Shown here piece by piece: positions 48,564 through 64,000 of a stretch of DNA of 64,000 bases. Position numbers and translations under genes: made by a program. The notes under the pieces were generated by a model. It saw nothing but the letters and a program-made list of their open reading frames with translations, made no database searches and had not been told where the DNA came from. Source of the stretch: Psychroflexus curvus (GTDB lineage Bacteria; Bacteroidota; Bacteroidia; Flavobacteriales; Flavobacteriaceae); the NCBI RefSeq assembly GCF_020164585.1, contig NZ_JAIQZF010000001.1, forward strand, positions 248,001-312,000. Reading direction: 5' to 3'. Position 1 is the stretch's first letter. Each line of letters opens with the position of its first letter.

Positions 48564-49263
48564 GCTTTAGCTTAGCTAAAAATCCGTAGTGGTCGTCTTC
48601 AAAAATCAGCTCACAGCTTAAGCCTTCATTTTGAGCTTTACTTTTAAGCAAATCAAAATCAAGATACAACCAGGGGAAAGACTGTGATACCTGTTTTTTG
48701 TAACTTGTTTTGAAAGTCATTTCGCCATAATATGAATTTTCTTCTAAGACTTCATCTTCATAAAGGAAAATCAAATCTGAAGAATCTAGTAAAATTTGAC
48801 TCGTTCGATGCATCAGGCTTTTTAATTTCTGAAAGAAAAAAGATAGATTTTTTACTGTTTTTGCAATTCCAATACCATTCATCAACAGAAGAATAGTGTC
48901 GAATTTCTGATTTTCAAGATTGAAAAAGTCAATTTGCTGAGCTTCTTGAAGACCTCTCTTATGACAAGTCTGAATGCATTTCCTTGAAATATCTATAGGC
49001 AGGACCTGATGTCCTTTTGCTTTCAATTTTAAACTGTGACTTCCAGCACAGCAACCTACATCCAAAACTTTACCTTGACATAAATCCAAAGCTAACTGCT
49101 CTAATTCTGGCATTTCCTCATAACTTCTAAAAAGATATCCGACTGTAATTTCATCATCATAGAAATCTTCGTTATGAACTATAATAGGGGTTTGGTCTTT
49201 TTTTAGAAAGTAGCTTTCCACAGCGAGACCAAATATATCTTTGGAAGCAGACGTCATATTCAA
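48556..49263 (-). CDS. Class I SAM-dependent methyltransferase
   Basis: A 235-residue protein with a Rossmann methyltransferase core. Motif I VLDVGCCAGSHSLKLKAKG is at about 71-89, with the acidic end of strand 2 in LPIDIS and motif IV-like ILLLMNGIG near 126. No target-recognition domain is seen, so the substrate is unknown. Unusual points are the Cys pair in the glycine loop (DVGCCAG). It is divergent from the YkgJ-like gene with 23 bp between starts. Confidence 0.82.
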   Translation of the reverse strand: MNMTSASKDIFGLAVESYFLKKDQTPIIVHNEDFYDDEITVGYLFRSYEEMPELEQLALDLCQGKVLDVGCCAGSHSLKLKAKGHQVLPIDISRKCIQTCHKRGLQEAQQIDFFNLENQKFDTILLLMNGIGIAKTVKNLSFFFQKLKSLMHRTSQILLDSSDLIFLYEDEVLEENSYYGEMTFKTSYKKQVSQSFPWLYLDFDLLKSKAQNEGLSCELIFEDDHYGFLAKLKLT

Positions 49264-49286
49264 TTTGTTGATTTTATATTTGTGGG

Positions 49287-49781
49287 ATGGAAGAATTTCT
49301 GAAGGACTTACCTAGCCTTGCCAAAGATAAACATAAAACGCATAAAGACTTTTTTAAACGTTTAAAAAAGCGACCACCAAAACATCTGGATCAAACCATG
49401 CAGAGGTTGCATGACGAAACGTTTGAAGAGGTGGAATGCCTTACATGTGCCAATTGTTGTAAAACAACCGGGCCTCTGTTTACCAACAAAGACATAGAAC
49501 GAATTTCCAAGCACTTCAGAATGAAACCATCAGCCTTTATAGATACATACTTAAGGATTGATGAGGATAAGGATTATGTCCTAAAAAGCGTTCCCTGTCC
49601 GTTTTTGGGCGGAGATAATTACTGTTCGATTTATTTTGTAAGACCAAAGGCTTGTGCAGAATTCCCCCATACAGACCGGAAAAAATTTCAACAAATTTCA
49701 AATCTTACTTTAAAAAACGTGGAAATTTGTCCGGCAGCTTTTAAAGTTGTTGAGAAAATGATGGAACAGATTAAGTTGTAA
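49287..49781 (+). CDS. YkgJ-family cysteine-cluster protein
   Basis: A 164-residue protein with the UPF0153/YkgJ pattern: ECLTCANCC at about 50-58 and PCPFLGGDNYCSIYFVRPKACAEFP near 109-133. The conserved cysteines probably bind a metal or Fe-S cluster. The function of the family is not established. The end overlaps the convergent PLP decarboxylase gene by 11 bp. Confidence 0.85.
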   Translation: MEEFLKDLPSLAKDKHKTHKDFFKRLKKRPPKHLDQTMQRLHDETFEEVECLTCANCCKTTGPLFTNKDIERISKHFRMKPSAFIDTYLRIDEDKDYVLKSVPCPFLGGDNYCSIYFVRPKACAEFPHTDRKKFQQISNLTLKNVEICPAAFKVVEKMMEQIKL

Positions 49782-51150
49782 CCAATTCTAGTTGTTTTTC
49801 TTCAACATAAGTCTCCATAACCTTGAAAAAGTTGAGTATATCTTCTTCCCGATTGTTGCTGTTAATGGCAACCAATCGAACAAATGTAATTCCCTGGAAT
49901 TCACCATAGCCCACCATTAACTTTCCGTCTTCATATAAAGAATTACACAAATCTTTAGGATCTATGTTTTTATAGTTAAAGCATACTGAAATAGAGTCTT
50001 CATAAGAATACAGTTTATATTCTGAATGGCTTTCTATGTAATTGCGTGCAGTTTGAGCTAGCTTAAATTGTTGATCTACCATTTGTTCCAGACCAGCCGT
50101 CCCGACTGATTTCCATAGAGTCCAAAATTTTAAGGCATCATTTCTTCTTCCGCATTGTAAAGAGGTTTTTCCTAAATTGTATTCATCACCATCGGTTTGA
50201 TACAAGTAATCAGCCTGACAGGCAAAGCTATGTTTGAGGTTGTGTTTTTCTTTTGTAATTAAAATAGAGCAACTGAGTGGTACATTCAGCATCTTATGAG
50301 CATTAAAACTAAAAGAATCTGCACTTTCAACACCATTGACAAGATACTTATAAGTTTTACTAAAGATAACCGAGCCGCAGTAGGCACCGTCTACATGAAG
50401 CCAAAGATTTTTATAATTTTTGGTAATATCGCTAATAGCATCAATATCATCGAAAGCACCTAGAACTGTTGTACCAGCTGTAGCATTGACGAAAAACGGC
50501 TTTAATCCATCCTTTATATCCTTTTCAATTTGTTTCTGAAGAGCTTCAGGAATCATTTTCCCAAACTCGTCGGTTTGGATTCTTCGAATTTGCTCTATAC
50601 CTATTCCACCAAACATAGCATTTTTGGTAATTGAATAGTGCGAAGCATCCGAGGTGTAAATGATCATTTTTTCTGAAACCCCTTCAAATTTAATGTCTCG
50701 ATTATAAGCATCTCTTGCCATAAGCATGGCCATGAAATTACTCATGGATCCACCAGGAGGAAAGGTGCCGTCAGCATTTTTGCCAAAATTGAGCATTTCA
50801 CAAACCTTATTGATGATGACCTTTTCGATTCCCACCTGAGGTCCACCCACTTTATAGGTGTACATGCTGTTGTTAAGCATAACCGCTAATAATTCGCCCA
50901 AAGTAGCCTTCGAATTTCTACCCCCAAAAAGTTGATTGAAAAACAATTTTGTAGAAGTCCTTGGGGTGCTTAAGACTATGTCTTCGAGCAAAGATTCAAA
51001 AGTATCTTCATTTAAAGCTTCATTGCTGAGTTCAAGATTTAGAACGTCTAAGAGTTTCTCTGCTTTTATCGGTTTTACAACTCCATTTTGTTTCTCGTGA
51101 GTTATAAGTTTCTCAGAAAGTTTTTGAAATAATTCAAGGTCTGCTTGCAT
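49771..51150 (-). CDS. Group II PLP-dependent decarboxylase; candidate cysteine sulfinate/aspartate decarboxylase
   Basis: A 459-residue fold-type I decarboxylase. The PLP-stacking region is PGGSMSNFMAMLMARD near 131-146, the ring aspartate is in WLHVDGAYCGS near 250, and the Schiff-base lysine is K286 in SFNAHKMLNVPLSCS. The NAHK(M/W) text and length place it with glutamate/cysteine-sulfinate/aspartate decarboxylases. A cysteine dioxygenase gene starts 72 bp away on the opposite strand, and a perfect palindrome lies between them. Cysteine dioxygenase makes cysteine sulfinate, so this enzyme may decarboxylate that to hypotaurine. Glutamate or aspartate as substrate remains possible. Confidence 0.85.
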   Translation of the reverse strand: MQADLELFQKLSEKLITHEKQNGVVKPIKAEKLLDVLNLELSNEALNEDTFESLLEDIVLSTPRTSTKLFFNQLFGGRNSKATLGELLAVMLNNSMYTYKVGGPQVGIEKVIINKVCEMLNFGKNADGTFPPGGSMSNFMAMLMARDAYNRDIKFEGVSEKMIIYTSDASHYSITKNAMFGGIGIEQIRRIQTDEFGKMIPEALQKQIEKDIKDGLKPFFVNATAGTTVLGAFDDIDAISDITKNYKNLWLHVDGAYCGSVIFSKTYKYLVNGVESADSFSFNAHKMLNVPLSCSILITKEKHNLKHSFACQADYLYQTDGDEYNLGKTSLQCGRRNDALKFWTLWKSVGTAGLEQMVDQQFKLAQTARNYIESHSEYKLYSYEDSISVCFNYKNIDPKDLCNSLYEDGKLMVGYGEFQGITFVRLVAINSNNREEDILNFFKVMETYVEEKQLELVTT

Positions 51151-51181
51151 AAGCCTTAATTGAAATTTATATTTACTACTT

Positions 51182-51198
51182 ATCGAAATAGTTTCGAT
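51182..51198. promoter_or_regulatory. Perfect 7-3-7 palindrome between decarboxylase and cysteine dioxygenase genes
   Basis: ATCGAAA and TTTCGAT are separated by TAG. It is the only strong symmetry in the 71-bp divergent gap, placed 31 bp before one start codon and 23 bp before the other. That position suits a shared operator or activator site for both genes. Confidence 0.5.
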
Positions 51199-51221
51199 TT
51201 TGATAAAAATAATTAAAAAGC

Positions 51222-51758
51222 ATGGACTCTACAGAAAACATAACATCTTTAAACAAACTTTTAGAAATATTACCAAGCTGTGAAGGACAAGATTATTTTG
51301 ATATAGCCAGAAATTTATCTATTCCAGATGAAGATCTCTTGCCATATGCCTTTTGGTCTGAAGAGAGCTACACCAGAAACTGCGTGCTCAGAACAGATGA
51401 TTTTGAACTTTTGCTTTTATGCTGGGAGCAAGATCAGGATACACCAATACATTGTCATAACGGTGAAGAGTGCTGGGTGTATCTGGCTAACGGAAAACTT
51501 CAAGAAAAACGCTATGTTGAAGAAAATGACGAACTTAAGTTGATTGCAGACGTAAAAATGACTCAGGATAGGCTTTCTTATATGAATGATGATCTTGGCT
51601 ATCATTCTCTGCAGAACATCAATGAAGGAAAATCTATGAGTCTGCATCTCTATGTTGGACCCATAGATGAATGTTCAATTTATGACGAAGATAAAAACAA
51701 GTTTATTTTTAAAGAATTGGATTACTACTCTGAAAATAAAATGATACTTACAAACTAA
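51222..51758 (+). CDS. Cysteine dioxygenase
   Basis: A 178-residue cupin of normal bacterial CDO length. Iron ligands H77 and H79 are in TPIHCHNGEECWVYLANG, with the third histidine in GYHSLQN near 131. C84 (EECW) sits near the site where the eukaryotic enzyme has its Cys-Tyr crosslink cysteine; many bacterial CDOs have Gly there, so its presence is notable. It oxidises L-cysteine to cysteine sulfinate with O2. The neighbouring divergent decarboxylase could use that product. It is 12 bp upstream of menB and may share its transcript. Confidence 0.92.
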   Translation: MDSTENITSLNKLLEILPSCEGQDYFDIARNLSIPDEDLLPYAFWSEESYTRNCVLRTDDFELLLLCWEQDQDTPIHCHNGEECWVYLANGKLQEKRYVEENDELKLIADVKMTQDRLSYMNDDLGYHSLQNINEGKSMSLHLYVGPIDECSIYDEDKNKFIFKELDYYSENKMILTN

Positions 51759-51770
51759 ATATACTTACGA

Positions 51771-52604
51771 ATGAACTGGAAAACGGTTAAAGAATTTACA
51801 GATATAACGTATAAAAAAAGCGAAGGAGTTGCCAGAATTGCTTTCAACAGACCAGAAGTAAGAAATGCTTTTCGTCCCAAAACAGTAAGCGAACTTTTTG
51901 AAGCATTCCTTGATGCAAGGGAGGATCCGGATATAGGAGTGGTTTTATTTTCGGGAGAAGGCCCTTCTCCCAAAGATGGTAAATATTCCTTCTGTAGCGG
52001 AGGAGATCAGAATGCCAGAGGCCATCAAGGTTATGTAGATGATGATGGCACACCAAGACTTAACATTTTAGAAGTCCAACGACTGATCAGATTTATGCCG
52101 AAAGTTGTAATTGCGGTGGTTCCTGGTTGGGCTGTTGGAGGCGGTCACTCTTTGCATGTGGTTTGTGATCTGACATTAGCAAGTAAAGAACATGCTATTT
52201 TTAAACAGACAGATGCCGATGTTACAAGTTTTGATGGGGGTTATGGTTCTGCTTATCTGGCAAAAATGATAGGACAAAAAAAAGCTAGAGAAATTTTCTT
52301 TTTAGGTAGAAATTATTCTGCTCAAGATGCTTTCGACATGGGAATGGTCAATGCTGTTATTCCCCACGATGAATTAGAAGCAACTGCCTATGAGTGGGCT
52401 CAGGAAATCTTAGAAAAATCTCCAACCTCTATCAAAATGCTAAAATTTGCCTTCAATGCCACAGACGATGGAATGGTTGGACAGCAGGTTTTTGCAGGCG
52501 AAGCCACCCGTTTGGCCTATATGACAGAGGAAGCTAAAGAAGGAAGAAATGCATTTTTGGAAAAAAGAAAACCAAACTTTAAAAATATCAAATGGATTTC
52601 TTAA
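51771..52604 (+). CDS. menB: 1,4-dihydroxy-2-naphthoyl-CoA synthase
   Basis: A 277-residue crotonase-fold protein of normal MenB length. Family-specific text includes ITYKKSEGVARIAFNRPEVRNAFRP, the FCSGGDQNARGHQGYV oxyanion loop near 75-90, AVVPGWAVGGGHSLHVVCDLTLAS near 115, and FKQTDADVTSFDGGYGSAYLAKMIGQKKAREIFFLGR. It closes the second ring of menaquinone from o-succinylbenzoyl-CoA, the main quinone of Bacteroidota. No other men genes are in the window. Confidence 0.96.
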   Translation: MNWKTVKEFTDITYKKSEGVARIAFNRPEVRNAFRPKTVSELFEAFLDAREDPDIGVVLFSGEGPSPKDGKYSFCSGGDQNARGHQGYVDDDGTPRLNILEVQRLIRFMPKVVIAVVPGWAVGGGHSLHVVCDLTLASKEHAIFKQTDADVTSFDGGYGSAYLAKMIGQKKAREIFFLGRNYSAQDAFDMGMVNAVIPHDELEATAYEWAQEILEKSPTSIKMLKFAFNATDDGMVGQQVFAGEATRLAYMTEEAKEGRNAFLEKRKPNFKNIKWIS

Positions 52605-52638
52605 ATTAGTTTATAAATAATCAATAATACATAAGACC

Positions 52639-53223
52639 ATGCCAATCCTAACTGAAGAAGAGCTTCAAGACATTGTAAACAAAGAAAATGAAGCGAAAGC
52701 CAAACTTGAACAAAAAGACAAGGAACTCGTTCAGGTTTATAAAGAGAAAAGAAATATAAAATCCGAGAGAAAAGGATTGGTCATTTCTACTGCAATTCTT
52801 GGACTGCTTTTTTTAGCTATGATTTTTGCGGTTATGTTCCAGCCCAGGCTTTTCGGGCTTAATGAAGAAGGTTCTAAAATAGCAGAAGATGAAGTGGTTA
52901 TAAAACAGTCTACTATAGATGACTATCAGGCCAAAGTTTTGGAACTGGAAGATAAAGTTTCTCAATATACAAACCCTCTTGAGCTAAAAGAGTTTTACGC
53001 AGTTCAACTAGGTGCATTCAAGAAATTTAATACACCATTATCATCAGATAATTTCAGTATTGTCCACAATGCAAATTATAAAGATTTTAATCTCTACACT
53101 TTAGGGGTCTTTAAAACAGAAGAAGAGGCAGAAAAATTACGTAAAGTCGTTAGCCAACTCGACTTTAAAGATGCATTCATTGGATTGTACAGAGACGGTG
53201 AACGGGTAGAAGCCACTTATTAG
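52639..53223 (+). CDS. Single-pass membrane protein with a SPOR-like C-terminal domain
   Basis: A 194-residue protein: a charged coiled-coil N-terminus (about 5-45), one membrane helix (about 50-70, LVISTAILGLLFLAMIFAVMF), a second short coiled coil (about 95-115) and a C-terminal SPOR-like domain (FYAVQLGAFKKF near 120, then LYTLGVFKTEEEAEKLRKVV). SPOR domains bind peptidoglycan stripped of side peptides at division sites. Predicted topology is N-in, C-out, consistent with cell-wall binding. It sits between menB and the PH-domain pair and is close enough to be cotranscribed. Confidence 0.72.
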   Translation: MPILTEEELQDIVNKENEAKAKLEQKDKELVQVYKEKRNIKSERKGLVISTAILGLLFLAMIFAVMFQPRLFGLNEEGSKIAEDEVVIKQSTIDDYQAKVLELEDKVSQYTNPLELKEFYAVQLGAFKKFNTPLSSDNFSIVHNANYKDFNLYTLGVFKTEEEAEKLRKVVSQLDFKDAFIGLYRDGERVEATY

Positions 53224-53224
53224 T

Positions 53225-53746
53225 ATGAGATTTGAAAATATAGAAATTCATAGTTCAGATCTGCCAGATTTTAAGTCAGTTGATTTAGAATCCATACAAA
53301 AACGATATAAAAAACAGATATGGCTCAATGAGTTGGCTGTGTTTATCTTATTGTTTGCTATTCCGATTGTGAGCTTATTTTTTGATGCGTTTCCGAAATG
53401 GATACCTCTAACTGCTTTAATTATTCTGAGTATTGTTTTTATTCTCAGAAGCATTGAGATAGAAAAAGGATTTCCACTCAAAAAATTTGGAGTGAGGCAG
53501 CACGATATGATTTACCAATCTGGCTTCTTTCACTTTACAGAAACAGTTGTTCCTTATAATAGAATACAGCATGTCGAAATAAAGCAAGGTCCACTTTCCA
53601 GATTGTTTTCTTTGTATTCACTAAGACTCTACACGGCAGGAGCATCATCTGGAGATTTGATTATTGATGGACTTGAAAAATCAACCGCTCAAAAATTGAA
53701 AGCTAAAGTTTTGGACAAAACAACGGTAGTGGATGGTACAAATTGA
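53225..53746 (+). CDS. Bacterial PH-domain (bPH2, YdbS-like) membrane protein
   Basis: A 173-residue protein with two membrane helices (about 35-55 and 60-80) followed by a bPH2 domain (about 80-170). The domain contains VRQHDMIYQSGFFHFTETVVPYNRIQHVEIKQGPLSRLF, the family signature. It lies one base after the previous stop codon and overlaps the next PH protein by 14 bp. YdbS/YdbT pairs are common in Firmicutes and Bacteroidota; a link to stress or antimicrobial resistance has been proposed in Bacillus. Confidence 0.88.
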   Translation: MRFENIEIHSSDLPDFKSVDLESIQKRYKKQIWLNELAVFILLFAIPIVSLFFDAFPKWIPLTALIILSIVFILRSIEIEKGFPLKKFGVRQHDMIYQSGFFHFTETVVPYNRIQHVEIKQGPLSRLFSLYSLRLYTAGASSGDLIIDGLEKSTAQKLKAKVLDKTTVVDGTN

Positions 53747-55256
53747 TTTTTCAACACCAAGACTGCAGTCCTTTAATGGCATTTTTCTCATATTTTTCAC
53801 CGATATCGCTAAGAGGGTAAAGCAAAACATCTATATTTTAGCAATCCCTTTTTTACAAAAAAATTTATTTAATAATTACGGAACCTATATTTATATAGGC
53901 CTGGCTTTATTGGTTATTCTTCAATTTGTGTTTTCTTATTTATCTTATAAGAAATTTAAATTTTCAATTCAAGAAGATGCTTTTCATCTGGATAGTGGTG
54001 TTATCAAATTGAGTCACATTGAAATCCCTTTTGAGAGAATTCAAAACATCAATCTTCAGCAGAATGTGCTTCAACAGTTATTAAACGTAGTTGGGTTTGA
54101 TATTGAAACAGCAGGAGAAGGCACTGCTGAAATCAAAATTAAAGCTTTAGATAAAGAGTTTGCCAATGCCCTTAAAGCAAAGCTAATAGAAGAAAAAAAT
54201 AAAGTTCAGGGCGCAGAGCTAAATCTTGATGAGGATAAAACTAGTGAAATAACTGAACAAACTCCTTCCAAAGAAGACACACTTTTATTTCAATTGGACT
54301 TTAAAACCCTGATTAAAGTAGGCATAAGCTCAAATTTGTTTAAGGGCGTAGGATTGTTGCTTGCTTTTTTAGCGTATTTGTACAACTTTATAATGGATTT
54401 TCTTACCACTATTTTTGATTTAAACCTCGAAGAAGATTTTAAAAACCGAATCCCAGAAACCCTTTCTTTTATAAGCCTTGTAATTATTGTCGTTTTTATA
54501 GCAGGTTTTTTGATTACTGTTTTGACTACTGTTTTAAAGTATTATAACCTGAAAATATTTAAAAACCAGCAAAATTATGAAGTTGTATATGGACTTTTCA
54601 AAAGAGAAAATAAGGTTATAAAGAAGACTAAAACTCAAATTTTTGAAATCAGAACCAATCCCGTAAAAGAGTTATTTAAAATCAGGAGTGTATTTGTGAG
54701 TCAGGCTTCGTCCAAGCAATTAACAGAAAAGCAAAAGATTGGCTTGGTGGGATTATCGAAAGAAAACCTGGGCATTTTATTTCACTCGTTATTCCATTTA
54801 GAATTAAGTGACCTTAACTATGAATTGTCTCGCTCACAACCAAGGCTTTTCTTTAGGTATTTTTATAAGAATTTAGCCATAGTTATAGGGCTTTCAGCAG
54901 CTGCTTATTTTGTTTATTTTAACTGGGTAAGTATTGTTGGTTTAATCATAATTTTACTTGGGTTATCCTGGATAGCTTTTTTGAGAGTCAAAAAGAGCAG
55001 TATTGGTTTCAATTCTGACCTCATTTCTATTAGAAAGGGTTCTATTGACACCAAGTTCAAAATTATAGAAATTCATAAACTCCAATCTGTCAGGCTGAGT
55101 CGAAATATTTTTCAGCAGTATAACGGACATGCTGATATGAACCTAGAGACCGCTTCCGGAACAGTTACTATAGAGTATTTGAAAGTAAAAGAAGCGGTTG
55201 AACTTCTGAATTATTTGATCTCTAAGGTGGAGTCAACAGACAAAGGTTGGATTTAA
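53733..55256 (+). CDS. PH-domain-containing membrane protein (YdbT-like)
   Basis: A 507-residue protein with several membrane helices (near 20-75, 195-265 and 370-415). It has three bPH2-like units, each marked by a fragment such as HIEIPFERIQNINLQQNVLQQLL, VIKKTKTQIFEIRTNPVKELF or IIEIHKLQSVRLSRNIFQQ. It is encoded overlapping the YdbS-like gene by 14 bp, and the pair probably forms one complex in the inner membrane. The biochemical role is not known. Confidence 0.87.
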   Translation: MVQIDFSTPRLQSFNGIFLIFFTDIAKRVKQNIYILAIPFLQKNLFNNYGTYIYIGLALLVILQFVFSYLSYKKFKFSIQEDAFHLDSGVIKLSHIEIPFERIQNINLQQNVLQQLLNVVGFDIETAGEGTAEIKIKALDKEFANALKAKLIEEKNKVQGAELNLDEDKTSEITEQTPSKEDTLLFQLDFKTLIKVGISSNLFKGVGLLLAFLAYLYNFIMDFLTTIFDLNLEEDFKNRIPETLSFISLVIIVVFIAGFLITVLTTVLKYYNLKIFKNQQNYEVVYGLFKRENKVIKKTKTQIFEIRTNPVKELFKIRSVFVSQASSKQLTEKQKIGLVGLSKENLGILFHSLFHLELSDLNYELSRSQPRLFFRYFYKNLAIVIGLSAAAYFVYFNWVSIVGLIIILLGLSWIAFLRVKKSSIGFNSDLISIRKGSIDTKFKIIEIHKLQSVRLSRNIFQQYNGHADMNLETASGTVTIEYLKVKEAVELLNYLISKVESTDKGWI

Positions 55257-55269
55257 GAAGCTTAGGAGA

Positions 55270-55746
55270 TTAATTCAATTGTAATTCATTTTCTAAAGCT
55301 AAGTAATGCTCTACTTTATGGTTGGAATTTAGGATAGGATAAATTTTAATCTCGCAGATGTACTCTCTGCCATCTTTTCTATAATTCACCATGGATTCTT
55401 CGCAAATTGAGTTTTTAGCGAGGTGTTCTCTTATGTTTTGTAAGGTTTTTCGACAAGTTTTTTCGCCTTGTAAAAATTTTGGACTTTTATTAATAACAAA
55501 GTTGAGGCTGTAGCCAGTCATATCTTTGAAGCCTTCATTTACCCAAATTATTTTTTGATTCTTATCGGTGATTACCAAGGCCTTGTACTCATTTTTAAAG
55601 AGCGTTTCCTCAATCTGAAAATCCCATTTGAATTTCTCCTGAAATTGATTTAATCGCTCAATCTCCTTTTTCTTTCTAAGTGACTTAAAAAAGTTAAAAA
55701 TATATTCAGAATAAATATCCCAAGATAATAGTGGTCCTCTTTTCAT
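55270..55746 (-). CDS. Short PAS protein, LOV-like but lacking the photoactive cysteine
   Basis: A 158-residue protein that is essentially one PAS domain (about 50-155) with a charged N-terminal helix. The text GYSLNFV...FLQGEKT...MVNYRKDGREYICEIKIYPI follows the LOV pattern GYSxxEV...NCRFLQGxxT...LLNYRKDG. The NCRFLQ core, however, reads SPKFLQ, so the flavin-binding Cys is Pro. No output domain is attached. It may bind flavin without adduct formation, or another ligand, or act as a protein-binding module. It converges with the YdbT-like gene. Confidence 0.8.
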   Translation of the reverse strand: MKRGPLLSWDIYSEYIFNFFKSLRKKKEIERLNQFQEKFKWDFQIEETLFKNEYKALVITDKNQKIIWVNEGFKDMTGYSLNFVINKSPKFLQGEKTCRKTLQNIREHLAKNSICEESMVNYRKDGREYICEIKIYPILNSNHKVEHYLALENELQLN

Positions 55747-56067
55747 AATTCAGTTTTAAGTAATTGAATATCAGTGTACAAATTTAAATTTAATTATGAT
55801 TTATCAAGCTTATAAAATAGTTATAGTAAACATAAAAAAACGGTCTTTGGTTTTTGTATTTCAACTTTTGTATTTAATATATCGAGATGATTTTAAATAG
55901 CTTTATATATTAAACTTTTATAGTTGGACTAGTTTTAGACGATTCAGCAGTAAAATTGTTGGCTTTTTTCATCAAACGTTGAAATCTAAATCAAGGCTTA
56001 TTATTAAGTTATCTGTAGTAATTTCATGTAAAATTGTATTTTCACTTGATATTAAATAATTTCTATT
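55747..56067. other. 321-bp gene-free AT-rich stretch before the TPR gene
   Basis: It separates the minus-strand PAS gene from the plus-strand TPR gene and so should hold both promoters. I see no exact TAnnTTTG with a spaced TTG and no strong hairpin. No small reading frame looks real. Confidence 0.6.
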
Positions 56068-58206
56068 ATGAAAAAAATCCTTACAATTTTATCATTTATT
56101 TTCATATCCATTCCCAACTCTTACAACCAAACAGCAAACAATTATCTTAATGAAGGAAATGAGAAAATGGAGTTACAAAACTACAGAGGGGCAATTGATG
56201 ATTACACAAAAGCTATAGAAATTAAACCTGATTATTTAGAAGCCTATTTCAATAGGGGAAACGCTAAACAAAAACTAGAAGACTACGGAGGAGCTATAGC
56301 TGAATATACTAAAGCTATAGCGCTTGAACCTAATAAATTGGAAGCGTATTATAATAGAGGGAATGCTAAGCTAAAACTAGAAGATTATAAAGGAGCAATT
56401 GCTGATTATTCAATAGTAATAGAAATTAATCCTGCTGATTCTAAAACGTTCAAAAACAGAGGTCTGGCTAAAGCTAATTTGGAAGACTACAGAGGGGCTG
56501 TTGCTGATTATTCAAAAGTTATAAACATAAATCCTGCTGACTTTAAGACCTTTAATAACAGGGGTCTTGCCAAAGCGAATTTAGAAGATTATAGTGGTGC
56601 AGTTGCTGATTACTCTAAAGCTATAGAGCTGAATCCTGCTGATTCGGAACTCTATTACAACAGAGGTCTCGCTAAAGCTGAATTAGAAGACTATAGTGGA
56701 GCAGTTGCTGATTATACAAAAGCTATAGAATTTAGTCCTGAAAATTCGGAACTATATTATGACAGAGGAAATGCTAAAGCAGGGTCGAGAGACTACAAGG
56801 GTGCTGTAAATGACTTTTCAATGGCTTTAGAAATTAATTCAAATTATTCAGAAGCCTACTTTAACAGAGGTTTTTTTAAAACCAAATTAGAAGACTATGA
56901 AGGCGCTGTTGCCGATTTTTCAAAAGTTATAGAGATTAATCCTAATAATTCGGAGGCTTATCTTAATAGAGGTCTTGCTATAGCTTTTTTAGGAGACAAC
57001 AGTGGAGCAATTGCTGATTATTCAAAAGCTATAGCACTTAGCCCTGATAGTTCGGAAATGTATTATAATATAGGCAATGCTAAACTAAAATCAGGAGACT
57101 ATAAAGGAGCAGTCACTGAATACACAAAGGCTTTAGAGCTTGGTCTAAATACTCCGGAAGTGTATTACAATAGAGGAAATGCTTTAGCAGGATTGAAAGA
57201 CTTCAAAGCTGCTATAGACGATTTTACAAAGGCTTTAGAAATCAATCCTGACTATTTGGAAGCCTATTTTAACAGAGGATTTATCAAATCAAAATTAGAA
57301 GACTATAAAGGAGCAGATACTGATTATTCAAAAGCTATAGAACTAAATCCTGATGATTCTAAGGCCTATATAAATAGAGGTCTTGCCAAAGCTGATTTAG
57401 AAGACTATACTGGAGCAATTGCTGATTATTCAAAGGCTATAGAGCTTAGTCCTGATAACGGGGAAGTGTATTACAATAGAGGAAATGCAAAAGCTGGGTT
57501 GAAAGACTATAAAGCTGCTATAGAAGACTTTACAAAGGCTTTAGAAATTAATCCAGAGTATTTAGAGGCCTATTTTAATAGAGGAAATGCTAAATTAGAA
57601 TTAGAAGACTATAAAGGCGCAGTCACTGATTTTACAAAAGCTATGCAAATGGATCCTGGTAATTTCAAAACCTATAAAAACAGAGGTCTTGCCAAAGCTA
57701 ATTTAGAAGATTATATAGGTGCAGTTGCTGACTATTCACTGGCTTTGGAACTTAATCCTGATGATAATCGAACCTATAAAAACAGAGGTCTTGCCAAAGC
57801 TAATCTGGAAGACTATAGAGGTGCAGCTGCTGATTATTCAAAAGCTATTGAGCTTAATCCTGATAATTTTGAAACCTATATTAACAGGGGTTTTGTCAAA
57901 GTAAAGTTAGGAGACTATAAAGAAGCAGTAGCCGACTATTCAAAAGCAATAGAAATGAACCCAGATTTTATGGAAACGTATTTTGATAGGGGAAACGCAA
58001 AATTAAAATTAGAAGATTATATTGGAGCTGAATATGACTACACAAAAGCTATAGACCTTAAACCTGATTATTTAGAAGCCTATTTTAATAGAGGAATCAT
58101 AAAAATGAATCTGGATAAAATAGATAGCGGTTGTTTAGATTTTTTAAAAGCCGCAGAATTAGGAAGTCAAAAAGCTAATGATATCATAAGGGACTATTGC
58201 AACTAA
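56068..58206 (+). CDS. Secreted tetratricopeptide-repeat protein with 20 TPR units
   Basis: A 712-residue protein: signal peptide about 1-21 (ending NSYNQ), then 20 consecutive 34-residue TPR units from about residue 22 to 701, with no other domain. The unit consensus is about Y(F/Y)NRG.AK..LEDY.GA, then (V/I)ADY(S/T)KAIEL(N)PD. The units are so alike at DNA level (102-bp period) that recent expansion is likely. Units 11-13 and 14-16 also match as three-unit blocks. Such all-TPR proteins are usually scaffolds for protein complexes; no partner is encoded next door. Location is probably periplasmic. Confidence 0.92.
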   Translation: MKKILTILSFIFISIPNSYNQTANNYLNEGNEKMELQNYRGAIDDYTKAIEIKPDYLEAYFNRGNAKQKLEDYGGAIAEYTKAIALEPNKLEAYYNRGNAKLKLEDYKGAIADYSIVIEINPADSKTFKNRGLAKANLEDYRGAVADYSKVININPADFKTFNNRGLAKANLEDYSGAVADYSKAIELNPADSELYYNRGLAKAELEDYSGAVADYTKAIEFSPENSELYYDRGNAKAGSRDYKGAVNDFSMALEINSNYSEAYFNRGFFKTKLEDYEGAVADFSKVIEINPNNSEAYLNRGLAIAFLGDNSGAIADYSKAIALSPDSSEMYYNIGNAKLKSGDYKGAVTEYTKALELGLNTPEVYYNRGNALAGLKDFKAAIDDFTKALEINPDYLEAYFNRGFIKSKLEDYKGADTDYSKAIELNPDDSKAYINRGLAKADLEDYTGAIADYSKAIELSPDNGEVYYNRGNAKAGLKDYKAAIEDFTKALEINPEYLEAYFNRGNAKLELEDYKGAVTDFTKAMQMDPGNFKTYKNRGLAKANLEDYIGAVADYSLALELNPDDNRTYKNRGLAKANLEDYRGAAADYSKAIELNPDNFETYINRGFVKVKLGDYKEAVADYSKAIEMNPDFMETYFDRGNAKLKLEDYIGAEYDYTKAIDLKPDYLEAYFNRGIIKMNLDKIDSGCLDFLKAAELGSQKANDIIRDYCN

Positions 58207-58368: not shown

Positions 58369-58386
58369 TGTGATAACGACAGGATT
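58369..58386 (-). repeat. Decayed copy of the tRNA-Arg 3' end (outer scar)
   Basis: The 18 bp match the 3' end of the tRNA-Arg gene (62661-62678) at 16 positions; the two mismatches are adjacent. The next bases form a CAGGAT/ATCCTG hairpin where the tRNA has its T-arm. A terminator (58318-58351) follows in the tRNA reading direction, as expected of a displaced tRNA end. Confidence 0.5.
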
Positions 58387-58503
58387 ACATATCCTGAGTG
58401 CGTTCTCTGCTGGAAATGCAAAACCATGGCTTTCGCCATTTTGCTTTTTATATTTACCATGCGTATACAAAAGCTATGCTTTTGACACTTGTGTAAAACA
58501 TAA

Positions 58504-58529
58504 AAACCACATTCGTTAGAATGTGGTTT
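58504..58529 (-). terminator. Displaced tRNA-type terminator
   Basis: A perfect 11-bp stem (58504-58514 with 58519-58529) has a GTTA loop and a T-run on the minus strand. It follows the 15-bp tRNA-end copy at 58539-58553 in the direction of tRNA transcription. This is where the original tRNA terminator would lie after an insertion between tRNA and terminator. Confidence 0.7.
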
Positions 58530-58538
58530 GTGCTTGTC

Positions 58539-58553
58539 GTGATCGCGACAGGA
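58539..58553 (-). repeat. 15-bp exact copy of the tRNA-Arg 3' end (candidate distal att site)
   Basis: The bases GTGATCGCGACAGGA are identical to 62662-62676, which cover the acceptor and T-stem 3' part of the tRNA-Arg(TCT) gene. Both copies have the same orientation. The identity stops on both sides, as at an integrase core site. Confidence 0.7.
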
Positions 58554-58655
58554 AGTAGTTTTTATACTTAATTTATACATATATATACTTATCATAAACT
58601 TTTCTACCTTGAAACTTTTATAATTGTTATATTAAGTATGAATACATATAATTTT

Positions 58656-58676
58656 TGTCGGGAAGATGTCGGGAAA
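58656..58676. repeat. Internal 21-bp direct repeat, copy 1
   Basis: Identical over 21 bp to 62585-62605 and itself made of two GTCGGGA units spaced by four bases (GTCGGGAAGATGTCGGGA). Same orientation as copy 2. Short repeats just inside both ends of an element can be integrase arm sites; this is inference. Confidence 0.75.
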
Positions 58677-58756
58677 TAAAACGCATTAAAAGTTATCATT
58701 AATTTATATTTTCGGTAAATTAAATCAGTGTTTAAATGAATTAAATGACCGACTTC

Positions 58757-60811
58757 TTAAACTACATTGATTAAAGTGTCTTCCTGAGCTTTCATTTCTC
58801 CTATTGAAACCGCCTGAAGTCCATTTTCTTTGAGCAACTGTTCAACCTTCAAATGTTCTCCTTCTTCAACAGCAATTAGCAGACCTCCGCTCGTTTGTGG
58901 ATCGCAAAGAATTTCTTTGTAGCGCTCGTCTTTCAAACTGGTATGATGCCCGTAACTTTTCCAGTTTCTATAGGTTCCCCCAGGTATGCATCCTTGTTCA
59001 ATATATTTATGTACTTCATCAAATACAGGAACTTTATCGAATTGGACCTCTGCAGATAAGTGACTTCCTTCACACATTTCAACCAAATGTCCCAAAAGTC
59101 CAAAGCCGGTAACGTCTGTCATCGCTTTTACACCCTCGATTTTTCCAAGTTCAAAACCGATAGAATTCAGTGTGGTCATGGATTTGGCTGCAATACCTAT
59201 ATCCTTTTCATCAATTTTTCCTTGTTTGCCAGCTGTAGATAATATCCCAACGCCCAAAGGTTTGGTGAGATAAAGTTTACAGCCTTGAGTGGCTGAATCA
59301 TTTCGCTTAAGGTGCTTTAAATCTATTTTCCCGGTTACCGCCAATCCAAAAATGGGCTCAGGACTGTCAATGCTATGTCCGCCTACCAGTGGACTTCCCA
59401 CTCTTGAACACACGTCACGACCGCCAGCTAATACTTCTCTGGCAACTTCAGCAGAAAGTTTATCGATAGGCCAGCCAAAAATTGCAATTGACATGATAGG
59501 CTGTCCACCCATAGCAAAAATATCACTTATGGCGTTGGTTGCTGCAATTTGTCCAAAGGTAAAAGGATCATCCACTATAGGCATAAAAAAATCTGTAGTA
59601 GTGATAATACCGGTGCCATCTCCCATATCGTAAACGGCAGCATCATCGCGTGTACTGTTTCCTACAATAATATTTTTATCCAATACTTGTGGCTGATCCG
59701 TATGCAGCATCTCCGATAACAAAGCAGGTGATATTTTGCAGCCACATCCAGCTCCGTGACTATATGCGGTCAGTTTGATGTTTTCCATTTCTTTCATATG
59801 TTTTAGTATATCTAGTGCATTTTGATGATGATTCGTTGAAGCTAGTTTGAGTTTTCTTATTCCGGAAGTCAATTTTTTTTGAATTCCAAGTAAATAGTAT
59901 TTGTCGTAATAATTGAGCGTCATCAACGCCACATTATAATAATCTTTGCAAGCTAAAAAATCTAAGGCTTGTTGTGTTCTAAGTCCTCCCAGACGCTTCT
60001 TTATTCTTAGGATTCCATCCTTCAAAAACTCATCTCCACAATCTGCATACCCATTCACCAGATGTTTGGCGCGTTCTTCTTTGGGTATTTCCAAAAATAA
60101 TACTTCAGCCTTATGCATTTGATGAAATAATGAGGCTGGTAAAATCACTTTACCAATATTCTGACTTTCATCCTCCAGCCAAATGATTCTCTTTAAATCT
60201 AATTTAGAAAACTGGTACTGCAAATTGTTTTCAAATTGCTCTACACTTGGCTGTTCTCCTTGACCAATACCCCCAAAAGCAGAGCCTTTGTGATTCGCAA
60301 AGCCTTCTAAATCTATGACCTGTTCGCCTTGTTTCTGTAATTCGTGAAGGATTTCAGTTTTCCCACTCCCCGTATAACCACCAATAATCTTTAGAGGAAA
60401 AGACGTTTTAAAATAATCAAGAACAAAGTTTCTAAAAGCTTTGTAACCGCCTTCTATCACTTTTACTTCATCGAACCCGTTAGCCATTAAATGTTCTGCA
60501 AAAGATTGACTTCGCATCCCTCCTCTCCAACAATGAATAATTACAGAACCTTTTGAAGCTACTTTTTTTGCTTCCTGGATATAAATTTGAAGTTTAGGAT
60601 TAACATAAGTGTAGCCTAACTCAATAGCTGCTTCTTTGGATTGCTGCTTATAAACAGTTCCTACATGTACCCTCTCTTCATTACTGAATAAAGGAATATT
60701 GTATGAATTTGGAATATGACCCTTTTCATGTTCTGAGGGAGAACGGACGTCAATAATCGGCAATTGAAGGTCTAAAGCTGCTTGTATGTTTATGAAATTA
60801 ACCATACACAA
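58757..60811 (-). CDS. Fused tRNA 2-selenouridine synthase (MnmH/SelU) and selenophosphate synthetase (SelD)
   Basis: A single 684-residue frame holds two complete enzymes. Residues 1-340 are MnmH: a rhodanese domain with catalytic C94 (HCWRGGMRS), then a P-loop domain (GGYTGSGKT, 144-152) that swaps sulfur for selenium in the tRNA wobble uridine. Residues from about 342 are SelD, starting ENIKLTAYSHGAGCGCKISP with C356 and K359 matching Cys17 and Lys20 of E. coli SelD. It makes selenophosphate from selenide and ATP. Because SelD has Cys, no selenocysteine machinery is needed to produce it. The fusion would pass selenophosphate directly to the tRNA-modifying half. It lies in the tRNA-Arg island; no selA, selB or selC is in the window. 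Confidence 0.94.
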   Translation of the reverse strand: MCMVNFINIQAALDLQLPIIDVRSPSEHEKGHIPNSYNIPLFSNEERVHVGTVYKQQSKEAAIELGYTYVNPKLQIYIQEAKKVASKGSVIIHCWRGGMRSQSFAEHLMANGFDEVKVIEGGYKAFRNFVLDYFKTSFPLKIIGGYTGSGKTEILHELQKQGEQVIDLEGFANHKGSAFGGIGQGEQPSVEQFENNLQYQFSKLDLKRIIWLEDESQNIGKVILPASLFHQMHKAEVLFLEIPKEERAKHLVNGYADCGDEFLKDGILRIKKRLGGLRTQQALDFLACKDYYNVALMTLNYYDKYYLLGIQKKLTSGIRKLKLASTNHHQNALDILKHMKEMENIKLTAYSHGAGCGCKISPALLSEMLHTDQPQVLDKNIIVGNSTRDDAAVYDMGDGTGIITTTDFFMPIVDDPFTFGQIAATNAISDIFAMGGQPIMSIAIFGWPIDKLSAEVAREVLAGGRDVCSRVGSPLVGGHSIDSPEPIFGLAVTGKIDLKHLKRNDSATQGCKLYLTKPLGVGILSTAGKQGKIDEKDIGIAAKSMTTLNSIGFELGKIEGVKAMTDVTGFGLLGHLVEMCEGSHLSAEVQFDKVPVFDEVHKYIEQGCIPGGTYRNWKSYGHHTSLKDERYKEILCDPQTSGGLLIAVEEGEHLKVEQLLKENGLQAVSIGEMKAQEDTLINVV

Positions 60812-61008
60812 ACATAGAGTTTATTAATAGTCATTTAAATTATGAATGGAAGTTTTCACTTTAGTTTATTAATTGAATGCTAACTATTAATTCAACACTA
60901 GTTTTAAGGAAAACGTAGGCTGTCTAAAATATTTTGAAAAAAAAATGTATAAACTTTATAATACCCTCATTTCTTTAGACCAGTTTTAGCTGCTTCTTAG
61001 TTGAATTC

Positions 61009-61830
61009 TTAGGCTGCATTTTTATACTTTCTTATTGGTTTTTGATTTATTCCCTGATGGTTTTTGTTATGATATTTATCTATCCATTTTTTAATTCCTC
61101 GGTACAAAGTTATACCATCATAAGCTGGGTTTAAAAAGATGTGTTGGTACTTAATGGTTCTCCAAAATCGTTCAATATAGATATTATCTAAAGCTCTTCC
61201 TTTGCCATCCATACTAATTCTTATTCCTTCATCCTTTAAAAAATCCACATAAGCTAAACAGGTAAATTGACTTCCTTGATCAGAGTTCAATATCTCAGGC
61301 TTGCCTTTGGTTTTTATGGCGTTTTTGACCACTACTATGCTTGCCTGTGCATCTAAGGTGTTAGATAATCCCCACGCCATAATAGCTCGGCTATATACAT
61401 CAATTATAGCCGTAAGGTACATAAACCCTTTATGCATAGGTATGTAGGTTATGTCTATCTCCCATACCTGGTTAGCTCACTCTATTTTCAAGTCTTTTAA
61501 GAGATAAGGATGTACATACTTCTTTTCTCCCAGAACTGTTAAGTGTCTTCTAGGATAAATAGGTCGAATGTTAGCCTTACGCATTAGACGCCTTACACGC
61601 TCATAGCTAGCCTTAATGCCTTTATCTTCTAACATGGATTGCATAGTGAGAACTCCAGCTGTTGGTTCCTCTAAGATGTGCTTATCCATAATTTGCATTA
61701 TTTTTAAGTTTTCTGGCTTTTCACCTAAGGGTTTATAGTACAAACTACTCCTTGATAAATTTAGAAGCTCACATTGGTTTCTAATACTTAATGAGAGGTC
61801 CTTTTGTTGTAAAATCAATTCTTTTTTCAT
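61009..61830 (-). pseudogene. IS3-family orfB transposase, interrupted by an in-frame stop
   Basis: The frame encodes 273 residues if codon 118 (TGA, 61477-61479) is read through. Upstream of it is the HTH_21 helper region (LRRLMRKANIRPIYPRR text). Downstream is the rve core with the DDE triad: VWEIDITYIPM, NSDQGSQFTCLAYV and YIERFWRTIKYQ. Related transposases usually have Arg here (IERANQVW type), so CGA to TGA is the likely change. It is otherwise intact. Confidence 0.9.
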
Positions 61831-62145
61831 TGCAGTAGATCCAAAGTCTTCAAGCTTTTTTTTAAATAGTCTCGCTCCATTTCAAGCTTACCAATTTTTG
61901 CATAGAGCTTATCCAAATCAACTTCCTGCTCTTTTGGTTTAGATGATTTTTTATCAAAAACATCGCTGGATTTTTCTAAAAACTCTTGTTTCCATTGACT
62001 GATTTGGTTAGGGTGCAATTCAAAACGTTCGGCTAGTTCCGATAAGCTATACCGCTCTTTTAAAGCTTCAATAGCTACTTTTGTATTGAATTCTGATGTG
62101 AACCTGCCGGCCGGAACAGGCGGGTTTTCTTCGTGATTTTCTCAT
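61827..62145 (-). pseudogene. IS3-family orfA, frameshifted by a 22-bp insertion
   Basis: From the ATG at 62145 the first codons read MRKSRRK, then a 22-bp GC-rich insert (62103-62124) breaks the frame. Removing it restores 98 codons plus stop, reading MRKSRRKFTSEFNTKVAIEALKER onward, the normal orfA N-terminus. The remaining part has the HTH (LSELAERFELHPNQISQWKQ) and a coiled coil. The stop overlaps the orfB start (ATGA). Confidence 0.9.
62103..62124. repeat. 22-bp GC-rich palindromic insertion inside orfA
   Basis: The insert is about 80 percent G+C in an AT-rich gene. It carries the 8-bp palindrome CCGGCCGG with outer CCTG/CAGG arms and can fold into a hairpin. Deleting exactly these 22 bases restores the orfA frame, which defines its limits (give or take a short target duplication). 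Its CCTGC/CAGG core resembles the relic at 10879-10902. Confidence 0.75.
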
Positions 62146-62218
62146 TTTGTCCATAATTTAAAGTTAATAAATTTTCAACTTAACTAATGGTCCGATTTTG
62201 TAGAGGTATTATAAAGAT

Positions 62219-62392
62219 ATGATTATGACCATTGGTTTTCATGATGCGATGATTCCAGAAGCCCAAAAACAAGGAGCCATAATCTGGATGAATAAAATCA
62301 TTGACTCGATAATAGAGCAGGCTCAAATATGGATTTATGAAAAATGTCAAAAACACGACTTTGATTTTGAAGAACTAAATAATATCAAATAA
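62219..62392 (+). CDS. 57-codon frame next to the IS end, possible remnant
   Basis: An ATG at 62219 begins 57 codons (MIMTIGFHDAMIPEAQKQG, ending FEELNNIK). The frame begins just 2 bp beyond the IS end. It may therefore be the tail of a gene cut by the IS, or a small gene. The amino-acid composition looks protein-like and amphipathic. I do not recognise a family. It is the only plausible frame in the 62217-62584 stretch. Confidence 0.35.
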   Translation: MIMTIGFHDAMIPEAQKQGAIIWMNKIIDSIIEQAQIWIYEKCQKHDFDFEELNNIK

Positions 62393-62584
62393 AATTAAAA
62401 TGACAAGATTCTTTTTTCTTTTATAGGCTTTTAAAGAGAACCTTCTTACGGAATGAATCCAAATAAATAATCAGCTTATGAATTCCAAAATAAATGCAAT
62501 TCTATCTTATAAATGAGTTAGATTTCAATCTTTTCTAATTAATTAATTAAGAAGCTATTTTATGTAGCTTTACGACTAAAAAAA

Positions 62585-62605
62585 TGTCGGGAAGATGTCG
62601 GGAAA
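62585..62605. repeat. Internal 21-bp direct repeat, copy 2
   Basis: Identical over 21 bp to 58656-58676, in the same orientation, 3,929 bp away. It lies 57 bp inside the intact tRNA-Arg. Confidence 0.75.
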
Positions 62606-62624
62606 ATAGGGGTGTTTAAAAAAG

Positions 62625-62648
62625 AACCCCCTGTGTTTACAGGGGGTT
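62625..62648 (-). terminator. Current terminator of tRNA-Arg
   Basis: A perfect 10-bp stem (AACCCCCTGT at 62625-62634, ACAGGGGGTT at 62639-62648) is followed on the minus strand by CTTTTTT. It lies 15 bp after the tRNA 3' end. Confidence 0.85.
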
Positions 62649-62662
62649 AGATTAAATAGGTG

Positions 62663-62736
62663 TGATCGCGACAGGATTCGAACCTGTGACCGTCTGCTTA
62701 GAAGGCAGATGCTCTATCCAACTGAGCTACGCGACC
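62663..62736 (-). tRNA. tRNA-Arg (anticodon TCT)
   Basis: A 74-base cloverleaf can be drawn: acceptor GGTCGCG with CGCGATC (one G-U pair), D-arm GCTC...GAGC, anticodon stem TCTGC/GCAGA with loop CTTCTAA (anticodon TCT, reads AGA), and T-arm ACAGG TTCGAAT CCTGT, discriminator A. The CCA end is not encoded. Its 3' end is the duplicated island core sequence. Confidence 0.97.
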
Positions 62737-62802
62737 TGTTTTTGCGAGTGCAAAGATAGAAATAATCTTCTTTTACGCAACTAATACATCTATTTTTATA
62801 AA

Positions 62803-62832
62803 ATAAAAAAGCCCCACATAAAGTGAGGCTTT
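62803..62832 (-). terminator. Terminator of the OmpA-family lipoprotein gene
   Basis: Arms at 62808-62817 and 62823-62832 pair with one mismatch, and on the minus strand they are followed by a T-run. It lies 18 bp beyond the stop codon of the minus-strand gene. Confidence 0.7.
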
Positions 62833-62849
62833 CATATCTGTAAGCTTAA

Positions 62850-63692
62850 CTACTTAGCCTTTTTCATTCCTTCTTCAATCATTCCGAAGAATTGATCCAG
62901 CTTAGGAAGAATTACAATTCTAGTTCTTCTGTTTTTAGCTCTGCCGTTAGCCGTTTCGTTGCTAGCTACAGGGATGTATTCACCTCTTCCAGCTGCAGTC
63001 ATTCGAGTAGGGTCTACATTGTACTCTTCCTGCAAGATTCTTACAACAGAGGTAGCTCTTTTTGTACTTAAATCCCAGTTATCTTCGATGTTGGTTCTTG
63101 AAATAGGATCATCATCTGTATGGCCTTCTACCATAAACTCGAAGTCTTTCTTGTCATTAACCACTTCAGCAACTTTAGCCAGAACTCTTTTAGCTTCATC
63201 AGTTACTTTGTATTTACCGCTTCCAAATAATAATTTATCTGAAATGGACACAAATACAACGCCTTTTTCAACATTGATTTGAATATCCTCGTCATTGATA
63301 TCATTCAATGCTCCTTTCAAGCTTGTCACTAATGCTAAGGTTACACTATCTTTTTTGTTGATGGCATCGTTCATCGTTTTAATTTGAAGATCTTTTTCTT
63401 TCATACTTTCCAATGAACGCTCTAAATTTTCAGCACCTTTTTTGGAAATAGTAACAATATCACTTTGAGTATCTAATATGGCTGCATTAGTACTTTGTAG
63501 CGTTTTAATTTGACCTTCATAAGAAGCTCTTAGTGATTTTTTTTCATCTTCGCAGGCAGAAAGTCTCATTTCAGCTGAATTTAGCTGGTCTTTAGTGTTT
63601 TGGTACTTGTCTTCCATTTCTGAAAATTTCTTGTTAGAAACACAAGACGTCATTAAGATACCTGTAATGGCAATAGCAAATAATTTTTTCAT
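62850..63692 (-). CDS. OmpA-family peptidoglycan-binding lipoprotein
   Basis: A 280-residue lipoprotein (lipobox LMTSC, Cys17). A coiled-coil region spans about 20-115, and a C-terminal OmpA/MotB domain about 140-270 with FGSGKYKVTDEAKRVL, VEGHTDDDPIS and NRRTRIVILP. It is anchored in the outer membrane and grips peptidoglycan, contributing to envelope integrity. It stands alone with its own terminator. Confidence 0.93.
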   Translation of the reverse strand: MKKLFAIAITGILMTSCVSNKKFSEMEDKYQNTKDQLNSAEMRLSACEDEKKSLRASYEGQIKTLQSTNAAILDTQSDIVTISKKGAENLERSLESMKEKDLQIKTMNDAINKKDSVTLALVTSLKGALNDINDEDIQINVEKGVVFVSISDKLLFGSGKYKVTDEAKRVLAKVAEVVNDKKDFEFMVEGHTDDDPISRTNIEDNWDLSTKRATSVVRILQEEYNVDPTRMTAAGRGEYIPVASNETANGRAKNRRTRIVILPKLDQFFGMIEEGMKKAK

Positions 63693-63757
63693 GTTTTTTA
63701 TTAATTTTAGTTATACAAATTTAAATTCTATTCGTTTAAAAAGTCAAGGCTTAACAA

Positions 63758-64000
63758 TTATTTATTGTCAGGTTTCAATTGGCTAAACCTATATATCTTA
63801 CGTGCAAATCTATACCAAACTATGCTACCCACATAAAATCTTTGATTCTTTTTTTCTAATTGATTTCTTTTTTTTAGCAGTTCAGGAATCAGACCATAAA
63901 AACTGATATGGGCTTTGAAAACGGCAATAAAGTGAAAGAATTGCCCTTGGATCAAAAACCGTATTGCAGCTAAACCATCCAAAACCATTCTAATAAAAAT
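63758..64000 (-). CDS. Probable glycosyltransferase family 2 protein, C-terminal end (partial)
   Basis: The reading frame is open from the right window edge (IFIRMVLDGLAAIRFLIQG...) to the stop at 63758. The first internal Met (63988) is not a convincing start because the frame continues upstream. The text RMVLDGLAAIRFLIQGQFFHFIAVFKAHISFYGLIPELLKK resembles the C-terminal tail of Flavobacteriia GT2 proteins as I recall them. About 80 residues are visible and the catalytic domain lies outside, so the call is moderate. Confidence 0.55.
   Translation of the reverse strand: MFIRMVLDGLAAIRFLIQGQFFHFIAVFKAHISFYGLIPELLKKRNQLEKKNQRFYVGSIVWYRFARKIYRFSQLKPDNK

Follow-up and report, generated by a model that had tools for sequence, protein, structure and literature searches.

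An insert at tRNA-Arg(TCT)

The window analysed here is a 64,000-nucleotide stretch of the Psychroflexus curvus genome (3.0 Mb, G000 below; contig NZ_JAIQZF010000001.1, positions 248,001 to 312,000; other G codes denote comparison genomes). It carries a 4.1-kb insert (58539-62676) at the 3' end of a tRNA-Arg(TCT) gene, bounded by a 15-bp and a 21-bp repeat and enclosing a gene for a MnmH-SelD fusion, an IS3-family element in pieces and a short gene remnant (Table 1). The insert is very probably what is left of a phage-type integrative element after decay and loss of its integrase; it now holds a segment resembling Psychroflexus longus (G174) DNA together with the broken IS3 element.

Table 1. 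Features of the insert and its ends (positions in the window).
Feature	Position	Strand	Basis or remark
Native tRNA terminator, displaced	58504..58529	-	hairpin; counterpart directly after the tRNA in G310
Distal 15-bp core (att), GTGATCGCGACAGGA	58539..58553		exact repeat; single copy at the joined site in G310
A+T-rich spacer, distal core to distal arm	58554..58655		
Distal arm-type repeat (putative)	58656..58676		exact repeat; same sequence as the tRNA-side one
Imported segment	58689..60957		97.6% identity to P. longus (G174:C1); 86.7% to G304, as far as 60886
MnmH-SelD fusion, 684 aa	58757..60811	-	MnmH up to about residue 338; SelD beginning near 342
IS3-family element, transposase in pieces	about 60957..62213	-	limits from homologues; only match reported in G000
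57-aa gene remnant	62219..62392	+	matches C-terminal part of a 223-aa G304 protein
tRNA-side arm-type repeat (putative)	62585..62605		exact repeat; two TGTCGGGAA units, 11-bp period; binding presumed
Terminator-like hairpin, brought in by the element	62625..62648	-	hairpin
tRNA-side 15-bp core (att), GTGATCGCGACAGGA	62662..62676		exact repeat = last 15 bp of the tRNA
tRNA-Arg(TCT), integration target, 3' end = core site	62662..62736	-	ARAGORN

An initial annotation, made from the letters alone, had read a 15-bp copy of the tRNA 3' end, a nested 21-bp direct repeat, a displaced terminator at one end and the intact tRNA with a new terminator at the other as marks of site-specific integration. 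All of these features were recovered. The tRNA 3' end is repeated at both ends of the insert, exact over 15 bp, and with up to one mismatch allowed the 15-mer was found at 2 places in the genome, the two cores; recurrence at many unrelated loci, which would have spoken against integration, was not seen. The longest word common to the two 500-bp ends was 21 bp (at most 15 bp in 500 shuffles), and the exact 20-mer core of the 21-bp repeat likewise occurred at 2 places in the genome. The terminators are consensus matches only: between 57000 and 64000, 8 terminator-like hairpins were found vs. 4.5 in shuffles.

Some match to a tRNA/ompA query was obtained in all 27 Psychroflexus genomes; 24 loci with a full tRNA gene were compared, 23 of them with flank (G314, G318 and G320 were outside the set, and G311 had no flank). 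The empty site that the initial annotation had proposed to seek in relatives, the tRNA joined directly to the native terminator, was present exactly in G310, where window positions 58419-58553 (89.8%) and 62662-63991 (82.2%) abut and the 15 bp are present once. A native-type terminator (AAACCAC...GTGGTTT) stood within 40 bp after the tRNA at 5 of the 23 loci (G310, G304, G174, G323 and G321). Among the four of these compared for flank (G310, G304, G174 and G323), flank in common with the window was found only in G310; the site is empty by flank in G310, and by terminator type only in G174, G304, G323 and G321.

Two relatives are occupied at the same gene. In G300, window positions 58378-58553 were matched at 91.6% up to the core (vs. 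about 78% over 49010-55839), and a 13.9-kb island with a 430-aa integrase then extends to the tRNA-Arg gene. In G306, the tRNA is copied over 48 bp at a point some 20.7 kb from tRNA-Arg, beside an integrase. G000, G300 and G306 all have the native-type terminator on the outer side of the far core. By this comparison, elements have integrated at tRNA-Arg(TCT) at least three times in Psychroflexus (G000, G300 and G306), and site-specific integration, as first proposed from the repeats, is borne out. At no relative with a readable site was mnmH-selD in the same place, and G300, G306 and G310 gave no mnmH/selD match; relatives with the genes in that place and no empty sites had been named as what would count against the proposal.

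Further partial tRNA copies were observed. Just left of the insert, at 58369-58386, there is an imperfect copy of the tRNA 3' end (18 bp, 89%), at the edge of the stretch 58378-58553 that is unusually conserved in G300; it is possibly the scar of an older integration. Partial tRNA-Arg copies also stand beside the whole gene at L153, L182, L186 and L187 (G312, G305, G321 and G313), and these are perhaps footprints of repeated integrations. In the G300 island (L196:6505-19901), helicase (GajB-like) and protease-type genes matched PADLOC models, and primase-like open reading frames (ORFs) were seen by eye.

The mnmH-selD segment and the rest of the interior

The MnmH-SelD frame is the only intact gene recognised inside the insert, as had been noted before, and the only mnmH/selD match in G000. 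Its MnmH part scored 358 bits against NF008750 (cut-off 241) and matched the rhodanese family PF00581; the SelD part scored 531 bits against NF002098 (cut-off 299) and was aligned to the solved SelD 3u0o (E = 1.6e-128), the stretch SHGAGCGCK included. 3u0o is the E. coli protein, and SHGAGCGCK is the SelD active-site stretch. Judged by its families, the one-chain enzyme should make selenophosphate and convert wobble 2-thiouridine to 2-selenouridine in tRNAs Lys, Glu and Gln, the selenouridine-modified tRNAs named in the available passages of PMC5322559.

Among the 27 Psychroflexus genomes, mnmH/selD was found in 6: fused in G000, G174, G304 and G320 (cut by a contig end in the last), and separate in G301 and G322. 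No match was found in the 34 other family genomes sampled; not every genome in the comparison is complete (G314, 52%). The four fused sequences grouped together (SH-aLRT 99), apart from G301/G322, in a SelD tree of 59 rows. A wider comparison comprised 89 loci, the best 80 of a longer list plus 9 more, some with SelD only or cut; a single-chain MnmH-SelD was present at 4 of them, all Psychroflexus and two from the same genome. Both enzymes of the MnmH (YbbB/SelU) plus SelD trait are here, in one 684-aa chain, whereas elsewhere the two genes are usually adjacent. The fusion was not found in the literature passages covered (PMC5322559, PMC1794560, PMC2398784, PMC2276186, PMC4561486 and PMC9312934), subscription papers being largely outside the search; the SelD fusions named in those passages are with NADH-dehydrogenase and NifS (PMC4561486, PMC2398784) and with a methyltransferase (PMC4561486).

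The segment holding the gene is much closer to G174 than is the rest of the window. Identity to G174 was 97.6% over 2269 bp (2.27 kb), vs. a background over 20 kb of the window of 76% for G174, 76% for G304, 79% for G310 and 80 and 76% (two pieces) for G300. Third codon positions differed between G000 and G174 at 34 of 685 codons in mnmH-selD vs. 118 of 281 in ompA, and where two of the three genomes agreed, 264 sites joined G000 with G174, 18 joined G000 with G304 and 24 joined G174 with G304. Because of these three comparisons, recent acquisition of mnmH-selD from the P. longus lineage, an interspecies transfer, is well supported. Foreign content was evident for this segment only.

In G174 and G304, mnmH-selD lies in one common chromosomal context beside a lactate permease. 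In these two genomes and in G301 and G322, mnmH/selD is on another contig than tRNA-Arg(TCT) or far from it. For G320, whose gene sits on a 6-kb contig that has no tRNA, tRNA-Arg was not located. The suggestion that selenouridine modification moves as a mobile trait therefore holds in part: horizontal movement stands (97.6% vs. 76%), but a recurrent, island-borne selenium trait is not supported, since 4 of the 5 other genomes hold the genes away from tRNA-Arg. Two further candidates were rejected. The lactate permease at G000:C30 was considered as the old place of mnmH-selD, but only the permease matches (69.6%) and the context is another one. A general placing of mnmH/selD beside tRNAs was not seen: 3 of 37 loci had a tRNA in the stretch, the nearest about 1.9 kb away (L080, tRNA-Gln), and the sole Psychroflexus locus had none.

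Donor homology begins 12 bp inside the distal arm-type repeat and ends where the IS3 element starts (60957). An in-frame stop interrupts its transposase frame, the three pieces of the transposase scored 113, 53 and 30 bits (all below the 160-bit cut-off), and no clear target-site duplication was found at the element. Beyond it stand the last 57 codons alone of a truncated gene. The 223-aa G304 relative of that gene showed a weak likeness to DUF5677 (E = 0.07, short of the cut-off); it had no phage-collection match, no PADLOC model and 8 matching plasmid records, all below 60% identity.

Repeats near the ends as putative arm-type sites

The 21-bp repeat, TGTCGGGAAGATGTCGGGAAA, is composed of two 9-bp units, TGTCGGGAA, with a period of 11 bp. 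Repeats of the same period stand near both ends of the islands in G306 (TGTAACACA) and G300 (GGCTACACGT, imperfect on the tRNA side), and at the far end they precede the start codon of the integrase by 27 bp in G306 (an internal start being assumed) and 34 bp in G300. Since these islands have repeats of their own in this position, the 21-bp repeat reads as a pair of integrase arm-type sites of a phage-type element, to which the integrase would bind; arm-type binding by an integrase is described in the available portion of PMC2951348.

An exact tandem repeat starting 43-64 bp beyond the tRNA was found at 5 of the 23 loci (G000, G300, G306, G299 and G307), and the native-type terminator stood directly after the tRNA at none of these five. 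Imperfect cases were seen by eye in G309 and G322. Viral contigs were scanned for TGTCGGGAANNTGTCGGGAA, and 7 stretches were obtained. At viral locus L202, the motif is followed after 28 bp by the gene of an integrase (414 aa, Arm-DNA-bind_5 domain present); L204 and L201 belong to one 59-kb viral contig, which thus has two occurrences. Arm-DNA-bind_5 was found in 3 of the 4 comparator integrases scanned. Short tandem repeats with one copy before an integrase occur at both ends in G300 and G306, and before the integrase in L202. The initial annotation had also proposed to seek islands with the 21-bp repeat and an integrase; the motif has an integrase directly behind it in the viral locus L202, and in the rest of the genus the repeat was found only as a G322 version with 3 mismatches.

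Several observations weigh against this reading of the insert. No integrase was found among the five ORFs or pieces scanned in the insert, smaller overlapping ORFs lying outside the scan, as the initial annotation had noted; the mechanism accordingly rests on comparison. The empty site in G310 belongs to a tRNA gene 469 bp from a contig end. Of 5000 200-bp pieces drawn at random from the window, 201 contained a tandem repeat of this sort, as did 82 of 5000 flank shuffles, so a single one means little and the weight lies on their presence near both ends. The 21-bp repeat was found in only 1 of the 26 other Psychroflexus genomes (the 3-mismatch version in G322, beside tRNA-Arg), and with up to one mismatch it was absent from all 298 other genomes of the family sample. 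Among the 7 viral stretches, only L202 has an integrase directly behind the motif; in L204 some 760 bp separate the integrase start from the tandem pair, and by eye no integrase was recognised in the other five. The best G000 match to the L204 integrase (C12, 35% identity) was considered as a possible helper and set aside, since the 260 bp before its gene contain no exact tandem repeat.

The G322 repeat adjoins an S24-type repressor resembling that in L204. No integrase was found near it among the PF00589 matches listed; G000 has 8 such matches, not all of them among those listed. The G322 stretch beside tRNA-Arg (L140:3606-10879) holds the S24 repressor and genes resembling a type I restriction system, of which the 819-aa protein alone was scanned. 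Integrase matches near tRNA-Arg in G315 and G317 showed no arm pair by the same scan and were not used; in G315 (L180:14700-15211) an array of TTTAATGTACAT-like repeats lies between tRNA-Arg and a tyrosine recombinase gene. At least 120 viral loci matched a 41-base tRNA piece; of 80 taken from them, 79 had enough flank, and a tandem repeat 3' of the tRNA was found in 3 of these, vs. 0 of 74 in the 5' control. As all three have other tRNA 3' ends, the comparison was given no weight.

Proposed history and its alternatives

In the history proposed here, a tyrosine integrase would have recombined an element into the 3' end of tRNA-Arg(TCT), the last 15 bp serving as the core and the TGTCGGGAA pairs as arms. 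The integration is well supported by comparison (empty site, other occupants and arm geometry), and an integrase of the TGTCGGGAA kind was presumably responsible. The interior would later have collapsed, with loss of the gene for the integrase and of another gene's 5' part, and the 2.27-kb P. longus-like chromosomal segment and the broken IS3 element would have taken the place of the lost DNA. The identity and boundaries of the segment and the truncation of the gene can be observed directly; the order of events is the presumed one. As no integrase was found, the insert is read as a decayed remnant and not as a working island.

That no mobile element was involved, the 15-bp and 21-bp repeats having arisen by chance or by an old local duplication and mnmH-selD being ancestral at the site, is highly improbable. 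Partial tRNA copies do occur beside tRNA-Arg in G312, G305, G321 and G313, but this explanation is opposed by the exact empty site in G310, the G300 island with the same boundary and the identity of 97.6% vs. 76%.

How the selenium gene came to lie between the ends can be explained by two models; the integrase and its neighbouring DNA are lost. The element may have picked up the gene in a P. longus-like host and brought it along on site-specific integration, the integrase being deleted afterwards; we hold this to be a real possibility, though a somewhat doubtful one. It agrees with the ends being intact and mnmH-selD being the one intact gene recognised between them, with its recent movement between species, and with the adjacent, unfused mnmH-selD pair on the Runella slithyformis plasmid pRUNSL01 (L219:6001-8094), a Bacteroidota plasmid by which the selenium trait is seen to be able to ride on mobile DNA. 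Against it, G174 and G304 keep the gene by the lactate permease and away from tRNA-Arg, a pattern-based scan of viral contigs found no relative, and the four matching phage-collection records cover the SelD part only. Alternatively, a resident, decaying island gained the P. longus-like fragment by illegitimate joining, the integrase being lost in the same event, with short likeness around TAAAA/TTATC at the left junction and the IS at the right, and the chances of this are about even. Because the donor homology begins 12 bp inside the distal arm, where the comparators start their integrase genes (27 bp in G306, 28 bp in L202 and 34 bp in G300), the segment may have replaced the integrase after arrival of the element; its other end falls at the IS, with a truncated gene behind and no clear target duplication. 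This replacement requires two illegitimate junctions, and no intermediate was seen.

As a decayed remnant of an integrative element, the insert resembles known systems. With tyrosine-integrase islands and prophages at tRNA 3' ends, such as KplE1 at argW (available portion of PMC2951348), it shares cores at both ends, arm-type repeats, a whole tRNA and a displaced terminator; it differs in that the integrase is lost and the interior consists of one imported gene, an IS and a remnant. With the cis-mobilizable elements (CIMEs) of PMC5704250, as described in the part available, it shares the loss of integration genes and the retention of both att ends; attL and attR are kept here and integration and transfer genes are lost. 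Its nearest relatives by arm motif are viral contigs, not integrative and conjugative elements (ICEs), and no tandem helper was seen. The two ends carry identical cores and identical arm sites, so a matching integrase acting in trans might cut the remnant out, in the manner of a CIME.

The insert is ordinary in kind, a decayed, CIME-like integrative remnant, and is a new case, unusually well resolved, with an uncommon fusion enzyme. In a literature search for Psychroflexus islands, none of the titles or abstract portions returned named Psychroflexus. Surveys have derived transfer of the selenouridine trait from trees and patchy distribution, as far as the portions available state; the present case, resolved to its boundaries, is of the trait entering a genome whose sampled close relatives are without it. 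It also offers a straightforward means of spotting likely integrase arm sites in a sequence, and the natural MnmH-SelD fusion would be a test case for whether joined enzymes channel selenophosphate to tRNA. A bolder extension, that temperate phages of the TGTCGGGAA arm family move integrase-less mini-elements in trans where these have kept their arms intact, and that such mini-elements are couriers of a single-gene selenouridine trait, is unlikely; if it were true, the fusion would make the whole trait portable as one gene.

Outside the insert, a 712-aa TPR-repeat gene built of 102-bp units occupies window positions 56068-58206, between 55839 and 58378. These two points lie only about 50 bp apart in G300, which corresponds to an insertion of the TPR gene here or a loss there.

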